Shown piece after piece: positions 1,964 to 31,571 of a stretch of 31,724 bases of DNA. Under the pieces are notes generated by a model. It searched no databases. It was given only the letters and a program-made list of their open reading frames with translations, and had not been told where the DNA came from. A program made the translations under genes and the position numbers. The stretch's first letter is position 1. Each line of letters starts with the position of its first letter. Source of the DNA: a virus; IMG/VR virus record IMGVR_UViG_3300017991_000293, positions 1 to 31,724 of that record; one strand, given 5' to 3'.

Positions 1964-4173
1964 TCGAAAAAATGACAAAAAGAGCAATTCAACGTCGAAT
2001 CAAGGCCGGACACTACAAATCCATCAGAAATGTAAAATCGGATAAAGGCGGGGGCAACGGCGGCATGAAAACGGAGATCGCCCTCTCCTGCCTCTCGCCC
2101 GACGCACAAAAAGCATACATTGAAAAAAATGAGGCCCTCCCGCCGGCTATCCTCCCCGCACTGGCACCTGAGGCGGCACTTGCCGCAGCAGAAAAGCTCT
2201 CCTTAATAAAAACCCCGAATTTCGACATTGTAAATAGAGACAATATCTGGTCCGACGAGACGGCCCTCTCGCCGAACGATCTCAGAAGCCCCAAAATCAC
2301 CCGGTGTGTCAGGATCGTGCAGGAGGCCATGAAGACACCCAGGGGGTGGAAGAAGCGCGCGTGGATCGAGGCCGTGGCCCTGAAACACGACACAACCGCA
2401 GCCACCATCTACCGCTATATAAAGAGGTATAAGAAAAAGGGCCTTGCCGGGCTCAAGCATACCAAGCCCACCCAGAAGGACAATCCCAAGTCATGGACGC
2501 CCGAGGCCATCGACTTCTGGCTGGGGCTCTGTCTCAAGAAAGAGCACAGAAAAATCTCAAAGGATCAGCTCTACCGGCTCCTGGTTGTCGAGGCCTCCAA
2601 ACGCACCTGGCGGATCGGCTCGTACCGCTCGGCCCTGTGGTGGTTCGAGAAAAAGGCGACTCCCCAGCTCCTGGCACTCCAGCGGGGAGGCGTCCGGGCG
2701 CTGGATAACACCCTGCCCCCGGTGCTCAGGGATTACTCTGACCTGGCGCCTTTTGAGATCCTGGTGGGCGATCAGCATCGGTTCGACTTCTGGGTGGTGG
2801 ACGATGACACGGGCGAGGTCTTCAGGCCGGAGGGTTACTTCTGGCAGGACCTCCGCACCCGGTGCTTCTACGGCGGCGCCGTCGACAAAAAATACGACGC
2901 CTATCTCATGGGGCTGGCCCTCCGCATGGGCATGAAGATCTTCGGCCCCTTTGACCATATCTATACAGATCACGGCCGCCCAGAGGAGAGCCGCTACATC
3001 ATGGGCATCATGAAAGAGATGCGGGACCTGGGGCTCATGGTGCACAGCACCGAGGATATCCCCGTTGACCTGGCCGATGCAGACGGGGAAGAGATCAATC
3101 CCTGCATAACGCTCCCCGGCTCCCACCGGAAGGCCATTGTCCGGAACGCCAAGGCCAAGATGATCGAAAAGACCAACAGCGCGATTGAGGCAATCCTTAA
3201 AAACCAGTTCCGGGTACCGGGAAATGTAAAGAAACTGGGTGGGAACCAGGAGGAGAACGATATCGACCAGAAAGACATCGAGCGCCTGGCAGCGGCGGGC
3301 AAGCTTTTGACCTTCAGGGAGTTCGTGCTCACCGTGCTCAAGGCGATGGACTATTACAACGCGCGAAAGGCCCACCGGGGCGTGATCCGCGAGTGGGCCT
3401 GGAAACCGAAGCCGAAAAGTGCCACGCCGATGGACTGCCTTAGGGCGTGCCATGCAGAGGGCTGGCGCCCGGTCCGGCTCACCGACGAGGCCGTGGACCT
3501 GATTTTTCTTGCCAAGGACACCAGGATTGTCGACCGGGGCCGGATTACCTTCCGGGGCGAGCTTTACGAGCACGAGCGCCTGGCCGATTTACACCGGAAA
3601 GAGGTATCGATCCGGTTCGATCCCTTCGACCCGGAGTGGCTCATCGTCTTTTATGATGGCGAGTATATCTGCCGGGCTGAGCCGGTGGAGTACTCCTCCA
3701 TGAAAGACATGACACTGGCACAACGAAAAATAGAAGAGAAACGCAGGCTCAGGAAGGCATCGGTTACGCAGTACCGGGAGCTAACCAGCCACGTTCCCGA
3801 TTTCCGCGAATACTCACAGGTTCCCGAAGCGGAGAAGCCCGCAGCCCTCATGGGCAAAGACATCAAGGCCCAGCAGCGCCGGCGCACGGCTGAAAAGGAG
3901 CTTTCCCGGGTGCGTACCCCCGAGGAGCTGGCAGCTGAGGTGGCTCGAATAGAGAGCTATGAGCACGAAGAGCGCCGCCCGGTTTTCAGCAGCGAGGTCG
4001 ACCGGTACCGGTGGTGCCTGGACCAGATGGCCCAGGGCGCATCCCTTTCAGGGCATGACCGGAACTTTATAGTGGATTATGAGGCCGGACTCACAGGAGA
4101 CACACTGGAGTACTGGGGCCTCTATAAAGAAAGCATCGGACTGGCGGAGCAAAGCCAGGCTGAAGGGGTTTAG
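1924..4173 (+). CDS. MuA-type DDE transposase
   Basis: A 749-residue protein from ATG 1924, with GAAGGG six bases upstream; a TTG at 1918 abuts the ribosome site and is less likely. It catalyses strand transfer of the phage ends for integration and replicative transposition. The order matches MuA: an N-terminal winged-helix end-binding domain (residues about 1-70, EEIWLTAEEGG onward), HTH segments (about 130-250, including TAATIYRYIKRYKKKGLAGL), an RNase H-like core and a beta-barrel/C-terminal part. The acidic triad is readable: D283 (LVGDQHRFDFW), D349 (IYTDHGRPEES) and E415 (KAKMIEKTNS). D-to-D spacing is 66, close to that of MuA. The last residues run into a heptamer repeat. It is followed by the MuB-like gene, as in Mu. 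Confidence 0.95.
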   Translation: MEEIWLTAEEGGELEKMTKRAIQRRIKAGHYKSIRNVKSDKGGGNGGMKTEIALSCLSPDAQKAYIEKNEALPPAILPALAPEAALAAAEKLSLIKTPNFDIVNRDNIWSDETALSPNDLRSPKITRCVRIVQEAMKTPRGWKKRAWIEAVALKHDTTAATIYRYIKRYKKKGLAGLKHTKPTQKDNPKSWTPEAIDFWLGLCLKKEHRKISKDQLYRLLVVEASKRTWRIGSYRSALWWFEKKATPQLLALQRGGVRALDNTLPPVLRDYSDLAPFEILVGDQHRFDFWVVDDDTGEVFRPEGYFWQDLRTRCFYGGAVDKKYDAYLMGLALRMGMKIFGPFDHIYTDHGRPEESRYIMGIMKEMRDLGLMVHSTEDIPVDLADADGEEINPCITLPGSHRKAIVRNAKAKMIEKTNSAIEAILKNQFRVPGNVKKLGGNQEENDIDQKDIERLAAAGKLLTFREFVLTVLKAMDYYNARKAHRGVIREWAWKPKPKSATPMDCLRACHAEGWRPVRLTDEAVDLIFLAKDTRIVDRGRITFRGELYEHERLADLHRKEVSIRFDPFDPEWLIVFYDGEYICRAEPVEYSSMKDMTLAQRKIEEKRRLRKASVTQYRELTSHVPDFREYSQVPEAEKPAALMGKDIKAQQRRRTAEKELSRVRTPEELAAEVARIESYEHEERRPVFSSEVDRYRWCLDQMAQGASLSGHDRNFIVDYEAGLTGDTLEYWGLYKESIGLAEQSQAEGV

Positions 4174-7024: not shown

Positions 7025-7933
7025 GTGGAAAAGCTCATTACATTTCTATCTGCCGCAATAGCGATAATCACCTGGCTTGTACCGCAAATCAAGCTGCCCA
7101 CAAAAGTCATCATCTCTGTCATTCTACTGCTTGTAATGATCTTTTTCCGTTTCCGGCAGTCAAACTACTATCTACACAAAAAATATTTTGATGAGAGGAA
7201 TCTTTTCATTTTCTGTGAAGAACTACCCCCAGCCCTGAGGGAAGGTGACGTTTTTTACTATAAGTATGTTCTGGTGGTTGGCAGTAGATACAGAGATGGC
7301 ATTAATGTAGGCGACCTACAAGTCATATTCAATACTACGGCTTCAATAATATCATATGACATCTTATTATGTGATTTTGATCAAAATTTGCTTAGGATTG
7401 AAGTAAGGGATTATTCCACTCTAGAGATAAAATTAGAGAAACTGAAAGCTTGGGATGTTTTTGCGATAGCAATTGACTGTAAATTAAATTTCAAAGAGGA
7501 CTATCCCTTTGTAGTTAGTAAAGCCCCAGAGTATCGCAATGTAATTGCGAGCTTAAAGGGCAATTATGGATTTTTCAAGAAGGATTATTCTTTCTCAAAG
7601 AATATTAAGCTCGCTAGCAGTCCAGCTGTTTGGCAAAAAAACGACATCCTTTTTGATATTGTTAGAGTCCTAGATTTAAGAAAGACCACAACAAGTGACC
7701 GTCTATCCAGTCTCGGAAAATTCATTTCGGAAGATGAAACTAAAACTGTCAAGCTTTTTGGGTTGATGGATAAGCCACTTCTGGCTGAATATAATGACTC
7801 TAAAAAAATTGTTCAGTATAAGTCGAGTAAGCCTATTTCATTTTTCTTTTACCCTATACGGGTCGTAATTTCTAAAAATAATGATGTTGGAATTGTATGC
7901 ACTTTAGGGCCCTTCAATCGGTATGAACCCTAA
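7025..7933 (+). CDS. AT-rich cargo gene: membrane protein with two N-terminal TM helices
   Basis: A 302-residue protein from GTG 7025. Two close transmembrane helices (residues about 4-21, LITFLSAAIAIITWLVPQI, and about 27-43, KVIISVILLLVMIFF) are followed by a roughly 250-residue soluble domain, presumably cytoplasmic, which I do not recognise. Base composition is clearly lower in GC than all flanking phage genes, and it stands alone between non-coding gaps (203 bases before, 203 after), the usual signature of a recently acquired moron. Such genes often give a lysogen superinfection exclusion or anti-phage defence, but nothing in the sequence proves this. The ribosome site is weak (AGGTG). 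No catalytic motif is visible to me. Confidence 0.75.
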   Translation: MEKLITFLSAAIAIITWLVPQIKLPTKVIISVILLLVMIFFRFRQSNYYLHKKYFDERNLFIFCEELPPALREGDVFYYKYVLVVGSRYRDGINVGDLQVIFNTTASIISYDILLCDFDQNLLRIEVRDYSTLEIKLEKLKAWDVFAIAIDCKLNFKEDYPFVVSKAPEYRNVIASLKGNYGFFKKDYSFSKNIKLASSPAVWQKNDILFDIVRVLDLRKTTTSDRLSSLGKFISEDETKTVKLFGLMDKPLLAEYNDSKKIVQYKSSKPISFFFYPIRVVISKNNDVGIVCTLGPFNRYEP

Positions 7934-10345: not shown

Positions 10346-11949
10346 TGATGGAACGGCCCGGAGATATCGAGCGCATATTGAGCTGGGATGAACTGCCGTC
10401 CAGCGTGCGGGAGATCCCGGATGGCTATGACCCCCTGGCCGAGGGCGTGCTCATGGTCCACCAGGCGGAGTGGATCAGGCAGATCCACGAGTATCCCTTG
10501 AATATCGCTGAAAAGGGCAGGCGCACGGGCATCACCTTTGCCACGGCCCTGGATGATACGATCACGGCATCGAGCAAGAAGAGCGCGGGCGGGGACAATA
10601 TCTACTATATCGGCGACACCAAGGAAAAGGGGCTCGAATACATCGGCTACTGTGCGCACATGGCCAGGGTTATGGCGGCGGCTATGGCCGAGGGATGGCA
10701 GGGAATAGAGGTGTTCCTGTTCGAGGATCAGCAACCGGACGGCTCGTCAAAGCATATCACCAGTTATCGAATCAGGTTCGCATCGGGCTATCAGATCGTG
10801 GCGCTCTCGTCCCGGCCGGCGAGCATCCGGGGGCTCCAGGGTAAGGTCAATATCGACGAGGCTGCCTTTCACCTTAATGTGCAGGCGGTGATCGATTCCA
10901 CCCTGGCCCTGATTATCTGGGGCGGCGATATCAGGATCATCAGCACGCATAACGGCGACAAGAACCCGTTCAACCAGCTCATTCACGACACCCGGGCGGG
11001 GCTGTTCGCATTCCGGATATTCCGGGTGACCTTTGACGATGCCGTGGCTAACGGGCTCTATGAGCGGGTGTGCATGGTCAAGGGATGGACCCCGACGCCT
11101 GAAGGCAAAAAGGAATGGTATCAGCGGGTGCGCGGGGCCTACGGGGCCAACAAGGCGGCCATGAAAGAGGAGCTGGACGCGATTCCCCGGGAGGGCTCGG
11201 GCGTGGCCATCCCCGGTATTTTGATCGAGGCATGCATGAAAGAGGAGCGGCCGATTATCCGGCTCGCCCTGGACAATGAATTTGCCCTCAAAGGGGAGGA
11301 ATACCGGAAATCATGGTGTGAGGAGTGGGTCAGAATTCATCTGGCGCCGCTCATGAAGGTGCTGGAAAAAACGCTCGAGCATGTTTTCGGGCAGGACTTT
11401 GCCCGGTACGGCAACTTTTCCGTTATCGCTCCCCTGGAAATTGTGAAAAACCTGATGCGGAAATGCCCCTTCCTGGTGGAAATGCACAATGTGCCGTCCC
11501 GCCAGCAGGAGCAGGTGCTTTGGTACATGATCGACAGCTTCCCGAAATTCCGGGGAGGCGCGATGGATGCGACCGGACCGGGGCTGACCCTTGCGGAATA
11601 CACAGCTGACCGGTACGGCCGGCCTCTGATCGAGGAGATAACCTTGAATGATGCCTGGTACCGGGAACACATGGTTCCCTTTCAGGACAGCTTCGCTGAT
11701 CAGACCATCGATCTGCCGCGGGATGCGGACATAAAAAACGACCTCCGCACGCTTGAGCTGATCGACGGCGTGATCAAGCTGCCCCGGCTGACGGTAAGCG
11801 ATACCAAAAACCCGGATTTCATGCGGCACGGCGATGCGGCAATCGCGCTTGCCCTGGGGCACTATAAATCGATCAATATGAGCGGGGGACCGGTGGAATA
11901 CGAAACCATTACATCCCGCAGGTTCGCAAACATGAAAGGAGCCTTTTGA
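10345..11949 (+). CDS. Large terminase subunit, Mu gp28-like
   Basis: A 534-residue packaging motor. Walker A-like segment EKGRRTGITFA (residues 56-66), Walker B KVNIDEAAF (about 167-175, Asp171-Glu172), an IISTHN motif III about 30 residues later, and a C-terminal RNase H-like nuclease with GGAMDATGPG (Asp408). It cuts and pumps phage DNA, including some flanking host DNA in the Mu headful scheme. The start overlaps the gp27 stop; a second ATG at 10348 cannot be excluded. Its stop overlaps the portal start. Confidence 0.93.
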   Translation: MMERPGDIERILSWDELPSSVREIPDGYDPLAEGVLMVHQAEWIRQIHEYPLNIAEKGRRTGITFATALDDTITASSKKSAGGDNIYYIGDTKEKGLEYIGYCAHMARVMAAAMAEGWQGIEVFLFEDQQPDGSSKHITSYRIRFASGYQIVALSSRPASIRGLQGKVNIDEAAFHLNVQAVIDSTLALIIWGGDIRIISTHNGDKNPFNQLIHDTRAGLFAFRIFRVTFDDAVANGLYERVCMVKGWTPTPEGKKEWYQRVRGAYGANKAAMKEELDAIPREGSGVAIPGILIEACMKEERPIIRLALDNEFALKGEEYRKSWCEEWVRIHLAPLMKVLEKTLEHVFGQDFARYGNFSVIAPLEIVKNLMRKCPFLVEMHNVPSRQQEQVLWYMIDSFPKFRGGAMDATGPGLTLAEYTADRYGRPLIEEITLNDAWYREHMVPFQDSFADQTIDLPRDADIKNDLRTLELIDGVIKLPRLTVSDTKNPDFMRHGDAAIALALGHYKSINMSGGPVEYETITSRRFANMKGAF

Positions 11950-13505
11950 TGGGCCTGATTGTTGACCAGTTCGGACGGGAAATCATCGTGGAGAAAAAAC
12001 CGGAGACCCGGGAGATCGCGGTGACCACGATCAGGGACCGGTGGTCCGGCTATCCCAGCCAGGGGCTCACCCCTGAAACCCTGGCCACGATTTTTAAGGA
12101 GGCCGATGCGGGCAGCGTGTACCGCCAGGCGGAGCTCTTTGAGGAAATGGAGGAAAAAGACACGCATCTCTACAGCCAGCTTCAAACCAGGAAGAATGCG
12201 GTTATGGGGCTCGAGTATGAGATCCTCCCGTACTCCCAGAGCGCTGGGGATATCAAGATCCGGGATTTTGTCGATGACGTGATTTCAAACATCGGCAATT
12301 TTGACGATGCCCAGCTGGACCTGCTGGATGCCATCGGCAAGGGATTCGCCCTTGAGGAGATTATGTGGGACGTGCAGGGAAAACAGGCTGTGATCACCGG
12401 GCTCAACTGGATTCACCAGAAGCGGGCGCTCTTTTACTCCGACTATGAGAAGGGCTTCTGGGCCAAAGAATTCGAGATGCCCAGGGTTATCACCGAGGCC
12501 GAGCAGATCAGGGGAGAGGAGATGCCCCCTTTCAAGCTCGTCTATCACCGGTACAAGGCCCGTTCGGGCTACGACACCCGGGCCGGGGTGCTCCGGGTGT
12601 GCGCCTGGATGTATCTCTTCAAAAACTATTCGATCAAGGACTGGGTTGCCGTTGCCGAGGTATTCGGCATGCCGCTCAGGCTGGGAAAATACGATACCGG
12701 TGCCAGCAAGGAGGATAAGGAGGCACTGGTGGCGGCCATCCGGAGCCTGGGCTCCGATGCAGCGGGCATCATCTCAAAGAGCACGGAGATCGAGTTCGTG
12801 GAGGCCATAAAGTCCACTCAGAAGGGAAACATCTATAACGAGCTCGCGGATTTCTGCGACAAGCAGATGTCCAAGGCCATTGTGGGCCAGACGGCTACGT
12901 CCGAAGGCACACCCGGAAAGCTGGGAAACGAGACGGCCCAGGAGAACGTGCGGTTCGATCTGCTCAAGGCGGATCACGAATCCCTGGGAAAGGCCTACCG
13001 TGCCCAGATAATCCGCCCGCTTGTCGGTTTCAACTACGGGTGGGACAAGCCGCTGCCCTGGTTCAAGTTCAGGCACGAGATCCCGGAGGATCTCAACGAG
13101 CTCTCCGAGGTGTACAAGAACCTCCACGGTATCAATTATCCCCTGTCGGCAGAGCACGTGTCCGAACGGTTCAAGGTGCCCCTGCCCGGCAAGGGGGAGA
13201 CGGTGCTGGAGGGACCGTCCCGGCAGATGGCCATGAAGCAGATTGTAGCGAAACAAGCTCAATTTTCGCCTGAACAGGAGCAGGTGGAGGCTTTGGTCGC
13301 AGAGAGCGTGAATCGGGCAGACAGGGCCATGAATGGCCTCCAGGAGCCCGTAAAACGGCTCGTTAGAGAAGCCCACAGCCTTGAAGAGATCCGGGACGGC
13401 CTGTATGCGCTTTACGGAGGGATGGATTCGAAAGAGCTTCAGGAGCTCGTTGCCAGGGCCATGTATGTGGCGGAGCTGTACGGGAGGTCGACCGTTGCCG
13501 GGTAA
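11949..13505 (+). CDS. Portal protein, Mu gp29-like (DUF935)
   Basis: A 518-residue portal subunit from ATG 11949, overlapping the terminase stop (TGATG). DUF935 signatures run throughout: LTPETLATIFKEADAGSVYR (residues about 39-58), DTHLYSQLQTRKNAVMGLEY, a long core with KNYSIKDWVAVAEVFGMPLR, and KQMSKAIVGQTATSEGT. It forms the dodecameric ring through which DNA passes. Its end overlaps the MuF gene by 11 bases. Confidence 0.92.
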   Translation: MGLIVDQFGREIIVEKKPETREIAVTTIRDRWSGYPSQGLTPETLATIFKEADAGSVYRQAELFEEMEEKDTHLYSQLQTRKNAVMGLEYEILPYSQSAGDIKIRDFVDDVISNIGNFDDAQLDLLDAIGKGFALEEIMWDVQGKQAVITGLNWIHQKRALFYSDYEKGFWAKEFEMPRVITEAEQIRGEEMPPFKLVYHRYKARSGYDTRAGVLRVCAWMYLFKNYSIKDWVAVAEVFGMPLRLGKYDTGASKEDKEALVAAIRSLGSDAAGIISKSTEIEFVEAIKSTQKGNIYNELADFCDKQMSKAIVGQTATSEGTPGKLGNETAQENVRFDLLKADHESLGKAYRAQIIRPLVGFNYGWDKPLPWFKFRHEIPEDLNELSEVYKNLHGINYPLSAEHVSERFKVPLPGKGETVLEGPSRQMAMKQIVAKQAQFSPEQEQVEALVAESVNRADRAMNGLQEPVKRLVREAHSLEEIRDGLYALYGGMDSKELQELVARAMYVAELYGRSTVAG

Positions 13506-14247
13506 ACTGCCGAAAAATATCGAGCTGAAACCGCTGCCGTTCGACGAGGCCATTGAGGCATTTAAGGGCCAGGTTCCGCTCACACCCGATGAGTTCTACG
13601 CCCTGGCCGATGAGGCGCGGGCACTGGGCTTTACCGTGGCGCGGGTAATGCAGATGGACGTGCTCGTGGATATCCACGGAGCGGTGGACAAGGCAATCAA
13701 GGAGGGTGAGACTCTGGCCGATTTCAGGAACCGCATGGATGAGATTTTCGAGACCAGGGGCTGGACGGCCCCGCCCGAGTTCACGCCCTGGCGGATTGAG
13801 ACGATCTTCCGCACCAACGTGCAGACGGCGTACTCCACGGGCAGGTACAAGCAGATGGTGGACCAGAAAGAGCACTTTCCCTTCTGGGAATACGACGCGG
13901 TAAACGATGCCCGTACCAGGCCCGAGCACGCGGCCCTGGACGGCAAGGTGTTCCCGGCGGACCATCCCTTCTGGGATACCTGGTATCCGCCCAACGGGTA
14001 CAACTGACGCTGCGGGGTGAACCCTGTCCACCGGTCGGTGGCCGAAGCGGAAGGGCTTGAAATAGAGACCGAGGACCCGACTAATGGTCTAATCGAGCCC
14101 GTGGACCCGGTGACCGGAGAGAAGATGCCGGCCCGGCAACTGATCCCGGACCCGGGCTGGGACCACAACCCGGCAAAGGAGCGGTGGCAGCCGGATCTGG
14201 GAAAATATCCAGAGGAATTGAGGGAAGCATTCAAAACAGGGAGGTAG
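13495..14247 (+). CDS. Head morphogenesis protein (MuF / Mu gp30-like) with in-frame UGA, probable selenocysteine 171
   Basis: I start at TTG 13495 because GGGAGG (13482-13487) precedes it by seven bases; the frame is open further upstream but lies within the portal gene. Residues 1-170 match the MuF family (MQMDVLVDIHGAVDKAIKEG, RIETIFRTNVQTAYSTGRY, the DARTRPEHAALDGKVFPADH core, then WYPPNGYN). At 14005-14007 a TGA falls where the family has the first Cys of its Asn-Cys-Arg-Cys motif; the next codons are Arg-Cys-Gly-Val. The same frame continues for 79 residues with a family-like end (DPGWDHNPAKERW) to TAG 14245-14247, giving 250 residues with Sec171. A SECIS-like hairpin follows. The alternatives are a nonsense mutation, a read error, or a 170-residue truncated protein. 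Confidence 0.85.
14008..14049 (+). promoter_or_regulatory. Candidate bacterial SECIS element
   Basis: Directly after the TGA, CGCT plus CGG (14008-14011, 14013-14015) can pair with CCG plus AGCG (14042-14044, 14046-14049). A large asymmetric internal loop leads to an upper stem CCACC/GGTGG (14028-14032 with 14037-14041) capped by the tetraloop GGTC, with U14027 unpaired at the base of the upper stem. From memory, the E. coli fdhF SECIS has the same GGUC loop and a bulged U one stem below. The loop starts 25 bases after the UGA, within the range accepted for bacterial elements. Confidence 0.6.
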
Positions 14248-14250
14248 ATC

Positions 14251-14424
14251 ATGACAGACAGCAATAAAAACCCTCGCGGCAACCCAAGACCCCATGACGG
14301 CAGGGGCGGTGGCAAAGGCATGCCTAATAGTCAGAGAGGCGGCCGGAACCCGAATCCCTGCCCGGATGGAGGCCCCGGAAAGGGTCAGGGAGGCGGCCGC
14401 GGAGGAGGACGGAACAGGCAATGA
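14251..14424 (+). CDS. Small Gly/Asn/Arg-rich protein
   Basis: A 57-residue frame with GGGAGG five bases before ATG 14251, a 3-base gap from the MuF stop, and an ATGA overlap with the protease start. The strong ribosome site and tight packing argue it is translated. The protein is low complexity (Gly, Arg, Asn and Pro dominate) with one Cys and no predicted fold. It could be a disordered capsid-internal or DNA-binding protein. I do not recognise it. Confidence 0.6.
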   Translation: MTDSNKNPRGNPRPHDGRGGGKGMPNSQRGGRNPNPCPDGGPGKGQGGGRGGGRNRQ

Positions 14425-15506
14425 GGGCATATCTGATCCTAAAGGCAATCGAGGGCTCAGCCGCTATAGGTGAGGATGGCAAGCCCGGCGAGTTCCAGGT
14501 GCTGCCCTACGGCACAGTGGAGATCGAAGGCGAAGAGGACGCGTTCGTAGACGATGAGGCGATGGATGCCATCGTCTCTGAGTTCACGCGGCGCGGCAAC
14601 GACATGGTCATCAACTACGAGCACCAGACCCTGACCGGTCAGGAGGCGCCGGCTGCGGGCTGGCTCAAAACGTTCGTGAAGAAAGGCGCCGAAGGCCTGT
14701 GGGCCGTGGTGGAGTGGACGGAGAAGGCACGGGAATATCTTGCCAGTAAGGAGTACCGCTATTTCTCGCCGGTATTCTGGGTTCGTAAGGCGGACCGGAA
14801 GATCATCGCTATTGATAACCTCGCGCTCACCAACTTCCCGAAGATCAACAACCTGAAACCGATTACGGCGAAAATGAATAGCGATTTTAATAACCGTCAA
14901 GGAGATCCTGCTTACAGGGAGCGGGAACGAAAGGAGAACATCATGTTGGAAAAACTCAAAAAACTGTTTGGGCTGGCCGATGACGCCGGCGAGGACAAGG
15001 TGGTCGAGGCCGTGGAGACGGTCGTGGCCAAGGCAAAAACTCTCGAGGAGGCCGCTGGGGGCAAAGACATGGTGGCCTGCAAGGAGGTCCTGGAGGCCCT
15101 CGGGCTCAAGGAGGACGCCAAAAAGGAGGATGCAGTCACGGCCATTGCCGGCCTGAAGGTCACGGATACTGCTGCAGCGGATCTGAGCCAGCAGGTGGCA
15201 ACACTCACAGCCGAAATCGCGGAGATGAAAAAAGGCGATCTCACCGCGCTCGCACTCAAAGAGGGCAAGACATCCCCCGAGGAGCTGGAGAAGTGGGGCA
15301 ACGATCTGGCGCTCAAGAGCCCGGATCAGTTCACCAGGATCGTGCTCTCCAGGCCCGCGGGCAGCGTGATCCCGGTGCAGGTAATCCCGCCCGGCCCGAA
15401 GGACAACGACGGGGACATTTCCGATGCGGCCCTCACCATTGCCAAGCAGCTGGGCAACACCGAGGAAGACCTCAAGAAGTATGGGGGAGTGGCGAAAGAA
15501 GGTTGA
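14421..15506 (+). CDS. Head maturation protease with C-terminal scaffold (Mu gpI-like)
   Basis: A 361-residue protein. Residues about 1-150 are the Mu-type prohead protease domain, with VINYEHQTLTGQEAPAAGWL (residues about 72-91; the His in YEHQ is a candidate active-site residue) and YRYFSPVFWVRK (about 112-123). Residues about 175-361 are an acidic, helical scaffold region with coiled coil (LSQQVATLTAEIAEMKK). As in Mu I/Z, protease and scaffold are one reading frame with an internal start for the scaffold alone. It degrades the scaffold during capsid maturation. Confidence 0.88.
   Translation: MRAYLILKAIEGSAAIGEDGKPGEFQVLPYGTVEIEGEEDAFVDDEAMDAIVSEFTRRGNDMVINYEHQTLTGQEAPAAGWLKTFVKKGAEGLWAVVEWTEKAREYLASKEYRYFSPVFWVRKADRKIIAIDNLALTNFPKINNLKPITAKMNSDFNNRQGDPAYRERERKENIMLEKLKKLFGLADDAGEDKVVEAVETVVAKAKTLEEAAGGKDMVACKEVLEALGLKEDAKKEDAVTAIAGLKVTDTAAADLSQQVATLTAEIAEMKKGDLTALALKEGKTSPEELEKWGNDLALKSPDQFTRIVLSRPAGSVIPVQVIPPGPKDNDGDISDAALTIAKQLGNTEEDLKKYGGVAKEG
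14943..15506 (+). CDS. Nested scaffold protein (Mu gpZ-like) from an internal start
   Basis: ATG 14943 lies in the frame of the protease and has AAAGGAG (14930-14936) seven bases upstream, an unusually good ribosome site inside a coding region. It would yield a 187-residue acidic, helical scaffold protein alone. Mu and lambda make their scaffolds this way (I/Z and C/Nu3), which is why I annotate it separately. Confidence 0.75.
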   Translation: MLEKLKKLFGLADDAGEDKVVEAVETVVAKAKTLEEAAGGKDMVACKEVLEALGLKEDAKKEDAVTAIAGLKVTDTAAADLSQQVATLTAEIAEMKKGDLTALALKEGKTSPEELEKWGNDLALKSPDQFTRIVLSRPAGSVIPVQVIPPGPKDNDGDISDAALTIAKQLGNTEEDLKKYGGVAKEG

Positions 15507-16764: not shown

Positions 16765-17670
16765 ATGTTAGTCAACAAAGCAAATATTGAAGCGGTTTTC
16801 ATTAACCTGAAGACCACGTTCAACAAGGCATTCGAGGCGGCACCCAGCCTGTGGGAGCAGACCACCATGCTGGTGCCCAGCGGCTCGAGCCAGAACGATT
16901 ATTCCTGGCTCTCCCGCTTCCCCAAGATGCGGAAATGGCTGGGCGACAAGGTCATCAAAGCATTGAAGGCATTCACCTACACCGTTGTGAATGATGATTG
17001 GGAGGCAACCGTGGGGGTGAACCGGAACGATATCCAGGACGACAACCTGGGCATTTACGCGCCTCAGGCACAGGACGCGGGTTTTTCCGCCAAGCAGCTG
17101 CCCGACGAGATCGATGCGGATCTCAAAAACAATGCCTTCGCCAACGTCTGTTATGACGGCCAGTACTTCTACGACACGGATCACCCAGCTGCGGGATCAA
17201 GTGTCAGCAACAAAGGCACGGCTGCCTTATCGGCTGCGAGTCAAGCCGCGGCAGCTGCGAGCTACGGCGCTGCCAGGATCGCCATCATGAGCTTCACCGA
17301 TGATGACGGCAGGCCCCTGGGGCTGGTTCCGGATCTCCTTGAAGTCGGTCCGGCTCTGGAGGCAACGGCCACGCTGCTGCTTACCAATGAAAAACTCGCC
17401 GATGACACGCCCAATCCCTATAAGGGTACGGCAAAGCTCCTGGTAAACCCGAGGATCACCAGCACGACACAGTGGATGCTCCATGTGACCAGCCGGCCGA
17501 TCAAGCCGTTCGTGTATCAGGAGCGGGAAAAGCCGAATTTCGTACAGCAGACCACTGAGGACTCCGACAGAGTCTTTATGAGAAAGACGTTCCTGTTCGG
17601 GGCCGAGGCAAGGGCAGCCGGTGGCTACGGTCTGTGGCAGCTCAGCTACGGCAGCACGGGCGAGGGTTGA
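16765..17670 (+). CDS. Major capsid protein, Mu gpT-like
   Basis: A 301-residue protein with AAGGAGG ahead of ATG 16765. The N-terminal segment (INLKTTFNKAFEAAP) and WLSRFPKMRKWLGDKVIKAL are signatures of the Mu-like gpT family, a HK97-fold shell protein. A middle region holds YFYDTDHP and an Ala/Ser-rich loop, and KLLVNPRI with a RVFMRKTFLFG end follows the family order. Length is typical. Flanked by repeat hairpins on both sides. Confidence 0.9.
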   Translation: MLVNKANIEAVFINLKTTFNKAFEAAPSLWEQTTMLVPSGSSQNDYSWLSRFPKMRKWLGDKVIKALKAFTYTVVNDDWEATVGVNRNDIQDDNLGIYAPQAQDAGFSAKQLPDEIDADLKNNAFANVCYDGQYFYDTDHPAAGSSVSNKGTAALSAASQAAAAASYGAARIAIMSFTDDDGRPLGLVPDLLEVGPALEATATLLLTNEKLADDTPNPYKGTAKLLVNPRITSTTQWMLHVTSRPIKPFVYQEREKPNFVQQTTEDSDRVFMRKTFLFGAEARAAGGYGLWQLSYGSTGEG

Positions 17671-30652: not shown

Positions 30653-30763
30653 CGGACAGCAGTCCGGGGAGTTGGCACCTCCCCAGACCCCGTGGGAGAA
30701 CACGGGACAGGATTACCTGCTGCCATCCGCCTTGGTGATGAAAAACAGCAAAACGGTAGCAGG
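30653..30763 (+). ncRNA. Candidate structured RNA / 5' leader upstream of the methylase
   Basis: Four stems occur in a row: CGGAC/GTCCG (30653-30657, 30662-30666), GGGGAG/CTCCCC (30666-30671, 30679-30684; one base shared with the first stem), CCCGTG/CACGGG (30689-30694, 30701-30706), and CCTGCTGCC/GGTAGCAGG (30716-30724, 30755-30763; one G-U pair). No convincing gene lies here. I recognise no known riboswitch class; it may be a regulatory leader of the methylase or an independent RNA. Confidence 0.35.
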
Positions 30764-30803
30764 CAGATCCGGAAAAGGCAATATTTTTTTGAAGGGAGGT
30801 GCC

Positions 30804-31571
30804 ATGAAAAGCCCGTTGAGTTACGTGGGAGGAAAGTCACGGCTTGCAAAGACCATTATCGGGCGGTTTCCGGAGCACACCTGCTACTGTGAGGTGTTCG
30901 CCGGGGCCGGCTGGGTATTTTTCAGAAAGGAACCCTCCGCCGTGGAGGTGTTAAACGACAGGGATGAGGAGCTGGTGAATTTATACAGGATCGTACAGCA
31001 TCATTTCGAGGAGTTTGTGCGGCAATTTAAATACATGGTGATCTCGAGGAAGATTTTCGAGATCCTGAAGCGCCAGGACGGCTTCACCTTGACCGACATC
31101 CAGCGTGCGGTCAAATATTTTTATCTTTTAAAGACAAGCTTCAGCTCGCGGATGGTAAACCCCGGCTTCGGTTACGGCACGACCGATCCGCCGCGGCTGA
31201 ACCTCTTGAGCCTGGAGGAGACGGTTTTGGAGATGCACTGGCGCCTGGCCAGGGTGACCGTGGAATGTCTTGACTGGAAGGACTGTATAGGAAGGTATGA
31301 CCGGGAGCACACGTTCTTTTACCTGGACCCTCCCTACTACGGGACCAAGGATTACCACTATAACTTCGAGGAGAAAGATTATAGAGCCCTTGCGGCCTTT
31401 TTGGGCGCCATAAAGGGCACATTTCTGCTCTCGCTGGGTGATCACCCTGTTATGAGAAAACTCTTTTCCTCGTTTAATATTGAGTCGCTGTCGGTGAAAT
31501 ACAGCACCGGCAGGAAGGCTGAGAGCAGAGACAAGGCACGGCAAGAGATTTTGGTGAGTAATTTCGGTTGA
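30804..31571 (+). CDS. dam: DNA adenine methylase, Dam/D12 class
   Basis: A 255-residue methyltransferase. AAGGGAGG (30791-30798) precedes ATG 30804, so the in-frame extension upstream is not used. Motif X and I are LSYVGGKSRLAK (residues 5-16) and CEVFAGAG (29-36), which bind S-adenosylmethionine; motif IV is YLDPPYYG (Asp175-Pro-Pro-Tyr178), for N6-adenine methylation; the target-recognition part lies between. It is likely to protect phage DNA from host nucleases, the role Mom plays from the right end of Mu, by different chemistry. The target is probably a short site such as GATC, but this cannot be read from the sequence. Confidence 0.9.
   Translation: MKSPLSYVGGKSRLAKTIIGRFPEHTCYCEVFAGAGWVFFRKEPSAVEVLNDRDEELVNLYRIVQHHFEEFVRQFKYMVISRKIFEILKRQDGFTLTDIQRAVKYFYLLKTSFSSRMVNPGFGYGTTDPPRLNLLSLEETVLEMHWRLARVTVECLDWKDCIGRYDREHTFFYLDPPYYGTKDYHYNFEEKDYRALAAFLGAIKGTFLLSLGDHPVMRKLFSSFNIESLSVKYSTGRKAESRDKARQEILVSNFG

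Follow-up and report, generated by a model that had tools for sequence, protein, structure and literature searches.

Recurrent in-frame UGA codons at a conserved cysteine of MuF minor head proteins indicate a probable selenoprotein family of Mu-like phages

Results and discussion

The IMG/VR virus record IMGVR_UViG_3300017991_000293, analysed over its whole length of 31,724 nucleotides (the window), is a 31.7 kb contig of a Mu-like phage and carries a gene for a minor head protein of the MuF/gp30 family (13495-14247, plus strand) in which an in-frame UGA (14005-14007, plus strand) replaces a conserved cysteine (Cys). We consider it very likely that this gene encodes a selenocysteine (Sec)-containing head protein, the UGA of which would be decoded by the SelB and tRNA-Sec of the host via a hairpin in the coding sequence. 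Judged by sequence criteria the Sec form of MuF is a bacterial selenoprotein, and from these criteria we infer that Sec is actually incorporated. The UGA-containing genes probably represent a new viral selenoprotein family, which has been gained and lost repeatedly.

A UGA codon within a conserved and selected frame

A first-pass annotation, made from the letters alone, had described a head morphogenesis frame interrupted by a single TGA and had proposed that it specifies Sec. The sequence bears out the interruption: the TGA, at residue 171, is the only internal stop of the frame, which starts at a TTG, ends at a TAG and yields 250 residues if the UGA is read through. The read-through protein matches the PFAM family PF04233 (Phage_Mu_F; residues 59-174, 8.6e-26, 91.3 bits against a curated cut-off of 29.6), TIGR01641 (1.8e-18) and PHROG 220, 'minor head protein and DNA pilot' (5.6e-80). 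As the last match covers residues 10-246, there is homology on both sides of the TGA. The annotation had spoken of a capsid protein with a Sec-Arg-Cys motif; the assignment to a head protein holds, although it should be specified as a minor head protein of the MuF/gp30 family.

The TGA occupies the first Cys of the sequence PPNGYNCRC, and the motif PPNGxxCRC is near-invariant. In an alignment of 29 sequences P165, P166, N167, G168, C171, R172 and C173 were invariant, as were D138, R142 and H145, which corroborates the earlier placement of the TGA at the first Cys of an Asn-Cys-Arg-Cys motif. Relatives at 76-82% identity have TGC or TGT at this position. Beyond the TGA the frame stays open for 79 codons, as had been noted, and open stretches past the motif measure 44 to 321 codons wherever the contig is long enough.

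The frame 3' of the TGA is under purifying selection. The ratios of non-synonymous to synonymous substitution rates (dN/dS) after and before the TGA were 0.155 and 0.151 for the window paired with locus L021, 0.147 and 0.130 with L003, and 0.161 and 0.125 with L005, and those after and before the site were 0.146 and 0.193 for L105 versus L185. Across the computable pairs, dN/dS after the UGA was 0.06-0.25, about equal to that before it. A region after the site that was closed or not conserved would have spoken against a selenoprotein; in the homologues it is both conserved and open.

Recurrence of the UGA and proposed switching between Cys and Sec

Degenerate DNA patterns with a TGA at the motif codon were searched over IMG/VR and bacterial genomes. 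The first pattern recovered 35 stretches from IMG/VR, 15 of which were MuF genes open on both sides; a second one recovered 34, including 23 MuF genes with frames open on both sides (eight of them new). The second pattern with TAA or TAG instead of TGA recovered 10 stretches and no MuF gene. When the TGA was placed at the second Cys, two MuF genes were found (L172:586-612 and L176:3194-3220), in which the predicted Cys-Arg-Sec motif is the mirror image of the window case. Among 85,000 species genomes scanned, two contained a MuF prophage with the TGA, namely Desulfovibrio cuneatus (L116, identical in sequence to the viral locus L101) and Candidatus Bilophila faecipullorum (L133), and a protein search within the Desulfovibrionales added one further UGA-containing MuF, with the motif U-L-C (genome G116). 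After removal of near copies, around 20 distinct MuF genes with a TGA at the first Cys were obtained, so that the comparison of homologues suggested by the first-pass annotation came out in favour of its reading. Given these sequences, the UGA at the MuF motif is not the accident of one contig. Most pattern matches outside the MuF family were chance frames containing stops, and a TGA match in genome G071 was rejected as a Sec gene, being a degenerate MuF fragment.

In a tree of 127 MuF proteins, in which U was entered as C, the Cys/Sec label required 16 changes, and well-supported branches made at least 12 of these unavoidable. Six genes form a clade that is entirely of the Sec type. The window protein was placed among Cys relatives of around 80% identity, and the tree leaves the direction of most switches undecided.

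A SECIS-like hairpin that follows the UGA

Bacterial selenoproteins have a selenocysteine insertion sequence (SECIS) within the coding sequence, and the published bacterial model (bSECIS) describes an apical loop of 3-9 nucleotides with a G in its first two positions, an upper stem of 4-16 base pairs and a loop situated 16-37 nucleotides after the UGA (PMC13188914). The window contains a hairpin of this geometry, not mentioned in the first-pass annotation, at 14028-14041 on the plus strand (CCACC-GGUC-GGUGG), with a stem of five base pairs and a four-nucleotide apical loop, GGUC (14033-14036), at 25 nucleotides from the UGA. The upper hairpin alone has a predicted energy of -6.8 kcal/mol and the 48 nucleotides from the UGA one of -18.9 kcal/mol, the bSECIS criterion being a minimum free energy of -7.5 kcal/mol or lower.

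Hairpins with perfect stems were scored over the family according to the published rules, except that the loop had to fit G[G/U] and that spacings down to 14 were admitted. Of the 22 UGA genes, 18 had such a hairpin at -4.5 kcal/mol or below, versus 11 of the 117 Cys genes (Fisher p=9e-12). The protein motif LSxRQ by itself favours the stem, and for this reason it matters that the hairpins were also compared with synonymous shuffles, which keep both the protein and the codon use. In that comparison the UGA genes gave a combined p of 8e-10, and p<=0.05 was reached by 6 of the 117 Cys genes, which is the chance rate. The effect of shared ancestry was taken out by comparing a Sec with a Cys gene in 12 phylogenetically independent pairs on well-supported branches; the hairpin followed Sec on average in 10 of them and the opposite was seen in none (median p=0.002).

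Individual comparisons illustrate how the structure is kept or created. The hairpin of L185 (CCACA-GGUC-UGUGG) is compensatory with respect to that of the window: CGG TCG in the window corresponds to AGG TCT in L185, both encoding R-S, so that two synonymous changes turn the innermost pair from C-G into A-U and the loop GGUC is kept. L105 has CCACA-GGUU-UGUGG. The sister loci L034, of the Cys type, and L176, with Sec at the second position, both encode VVSLSGREV, and only L176 has the hairpin, which is created by synonymous changes in the Ser, Gly, Arg and Glu codons (AGT>TCC, GGC>GGG, AGA>CGG and GAA>GAG).

Some Cys genes also contain such structures. In L006, which is close to the window, the stem CCACA/UGUGG is kept 3' of the CRC motif, which lies near 3463-3490, but has the loop GGAG; this stem may be left over from a former Sec gene. 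The Cys MuF genes L235, L238 and L240 of the Desulfovibrionales genomes G203, G275 and G168, respectively, have strong SECIS-like hairpins of -9.5 to -10 kcal/mol with the loop 27 nucleotides after the Cys codon, which may be relics or may have arisen by chance from the LSARQ codons. An Rfam scan at the site recovered nothing relevant; as RF00031 matched nowhere, control genomes included, its absence is uninformative.

Hosts and the machinery for Sec

The three genomes with UGA-type MuF prophages all belong to the Desulfovibrionales. A tRNA-Sec above the cut-off was present in all three (Desulfovibrio cuneatus, Candidatus Bilophila faecipullorum and G116), and SelB above the family cut-off in both genomes tested for it (the former two). 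The first-pass annotation had named a host without selB and selC as an argument against Sec; this point was addressed in the genomes of the related prophages, and for those it turned out in favour. No tRNA-Sec was found in 19 phage records, the window included, several of which are fragments; the decoding must therefore come from the host, and the phages with a UGA-type MuF appear to need the selenium machinery of the host to complete a part of their virion.

Taken together, we propose that the SelB and tRNA-Sec of the host decode the UGA at 14005-14007 as Sec, aided by the hairpin at 14028-14041, so that the motif Cys-Arg-Cys would become Sec-Arg-Cys. The decoding would allow the ribosome to reach the last 79 codons and, in some relatives, an entire effector-like domain fused to the head protein. 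Cys and Sec would have been swapped many times among phage lineages, with the hairpin gained or lost via mostly synonymous changes, and a phage that lacks tRNA-Sec would depend on a selenium-using host. A bolder extension, which we hold with more doubt than conviction, is that Mu-like phages toggle either position of the Cys pair of the head protein between Cys and Sec when they move between hosts. MuF would then be a widespread and mobile virion selenoprotein, and the selenium status of the host would gate the full-length head protein and some attached injected effectors, such that selenium acts as a switch of host range or assembly.

Weighing the alternatives

Several observations count against the decoding of the UGA as Sec. 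The window is known from a single contig and its close relatives, at around 80% identity, are all of the Cys type. Its hairpin taken alone is only mildly unusual (p=0.043 versus synonymous shuffles) and the global fold of the 72 nucleotides that follow the UGA does not stand out (z=-0.94), which locates the signal in the constrained apical hairpin. The UGA genes L083 and L113 have no hairpin of the published type and that of L093 is feeble, while in L097 and L099 the loop lies 15 nucleotides after the UGA, just outside the published spacing. No MuF more than around 58% identical to that of the window was recovered from the 297 and 395 bacterial genomes searched for its host. Finally, tRNA-Sec occurs in 254 of 297 Desulfovibrionales genomes. 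With this baseline of 86%, the host association inside the order carries little weight, and the weight rests on the fact that the genome-wide scan matched only Sec-rich Desulfovibrionales.

The single contig, the TGC or TGT codons of the nearest relatives and the degenerate MuF copy in G071 would all suit a sequencing error or a pseudogene, with the TGA resulting from a chance mutation or a misread base and the C-terminal part being either dead or truly Cys-coded. At the level of the family this is already contradicted by the TGA (and never TAA or TAG) in the same column of around 20 distinct genes, the samples and genomes of which are unrelated, by the purifying selection 3' of the site and by the association of the UGA with a SECIS hairpin, and we regard such an explanation as very improbable. 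Another alternative is a programmed readthrough that is free of selenium, in which near-cognate Trp or another residue is inserted at a leaky UGA and the hairpin does no more than stimulate readthrough, so as to produce short and long head proteins in a set ratio. Among the stops UGA leaks most, readthrough is known to give rise to long and short structural proteins in the RNA phage Q-beta, and some of the extensions contain fused domains (PBECR2 in L133, DUF3626 in L105). Yet the UGA is always situated at one of the two Cys of the CRC motif, either the first or the second, rather than at a domain border; moreover, the loops fit the G[G/U] rule of the SelB type, the Cys homologues have the long form only and the genomes recovered are members of an order rich in Sec. 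Considering these constraints, there is very little chance that readthrough of this kind explains the UGA.

Phages with reassigned stops do exist, and a variant code of host or phage in which UGA is read as Trp or Gly (codes 4 and 25) would likewise keep the frame open. However, TGA is a regular stop elsewhere in the window and ends 17 of its 33 main open reading frames, from which it follows that the code of this phage has not been reassigned; in addition, no second TGA-interrupted gene was recognised in the window and the residue replaced is Cys instead of Trp or Gly. A variant code is thus already contradicted and its probability is close to nil. The decoding as Sec that the first-pass annotation had put forward is, by comparison with these explanations, supported by the recurrence, the open and selected frame, the SECIS association and the Sec machinery in the genomes that carry related prophages.

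Structure and function

The AlphaFold model was confident for the core, residues 121-220 (predicted local distance difference test, pLDDT, 83-96 per block), and the predicted fold matched other MuF models; its matches in BFVD were phage head morphogenesis proteins. No solved structure was matched when the PDB was searched by sequence and by fold. Judged by their invariance, the residues D138, R142 and H145 may form a metal or redox site together with the two Cys/Sec residues, and the occurrence of a Sec codon at one or the other Cys of the CRC motif suggests a chemistry in which the two take part together. Such a metal or thiol/selenol site could stabilise or switch the minor head protein in assembly or ejection, and Sec might improve the site in reducing, anaerobic hosts; these functional proposals are weaker than those on the decoding.

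MuF proteins are structural components of the head, and effector domains that are injected are sometimes found fused to them (PMC5512222). In two of the UGA genes (L133:671-1450 and L105:3263-4225) the frame after the UGA runs into a fused domain, namely a PBECR2 nuclease-like domain in L133 and a match to DUF3626 in L105. Since these parts lie 3' of the UGA, its decoding would also gate effector-like domains.

Relation to known selenoproteins

The UGA-type MuF resembles bacterial selenoproteins that depend on SelB and a bSECIS, like the formate dehydrogenases FdhF/FdhA, in the in-frame UGA at a Cys conserved in the homologues, in the hairpin just 3' of the UGA inside the coding sequence with G[G/U] in the first loop positions, and in the presence of the Sec machinery in the hosts found. 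It differs from these host redox enzymes in that it is a structural protein of a phage virion and in that its UGA forms are scattered among Cys forms. With the other MuF, gp30 and SPP1 gp7 minor head proteins it shares full-length homology, the operon position between a Mu-like portal and protease and the D..R..H..CRC pattern, but unlike in those proteins one Cys of the CRC motif is encoded by UGA and a SECIS-like element overlaps the following codons. The selenoproteins of poxviruses, which are glutathione peroxidase homologues (PMC8310308), likewise are viral gene products that need Sec decoding by the host. They are, however, captured host enzymes with a eukaryotic SECIS (PMC8310308), whereas MuF belongs to the native virion genes of DNA phages and would use a bacterial SECIS, with Sec having evolved in place and repeatedly.

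Neither phage structural proteins nor MuF are among the 119 families of prokaryotic selenoproteins listed in a 2026 catalogue (PMC13188914). A literature search, with subscription papers outside its reach, recovered no description of a Sec MuF family, and full-text searches and that catalogue gave no indication of an earlier 'prophage Mu-like' selenoprotein prediction. If correct, our interpretation would place a viral structural protein beside the catalogued selenoproteins and would tie phage assembly to the selenium metabolism of the host. Standard gene callers would be expected to shorten UGA-type MuF genes or to flag them as broken. As Cys and Sec would have been exchanged repeatedly, with the hairpin gained or lost in step, the family would offer many natural replicates for studying the benefit of Sec in a protein without an obvious redox role.

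Genomic context in the window

The gene order portal, MuF, protease and major head protein is that of Mu-like phages. The Mu-like portal protein gene (11946-13505; PF06074, 8e-98) shares 11 nucleotides with the start of the MuF gene, and a Shine-Dalgarno-like GGGAGG, read from the sequence, is present at 13482-13487, 7 nucleotides upstream of the TTG start at 13495. Downstream follow the genes for the Mu-like head maturation protease gpI (14421-15506; PF10123, 6.1e-75) and the Mu-like major head subunit gpT (16765-17670; PF10124, 2.7e-85), all on the plus strand. A small Gly/Arg/Asn-rich frame (MTDSNKNPRGNPRPHDGRGGGKG...) is found between the MuF and protease genes at 14250-14423. Elsewhere in the window, a frame of 302 residues without a PHROG match (7025-7933) separates the early genes from the lysis/structural genes, and a DNA methyltransferase gene (PHROG 56; 30672-31571) is situated at the contig's right end.
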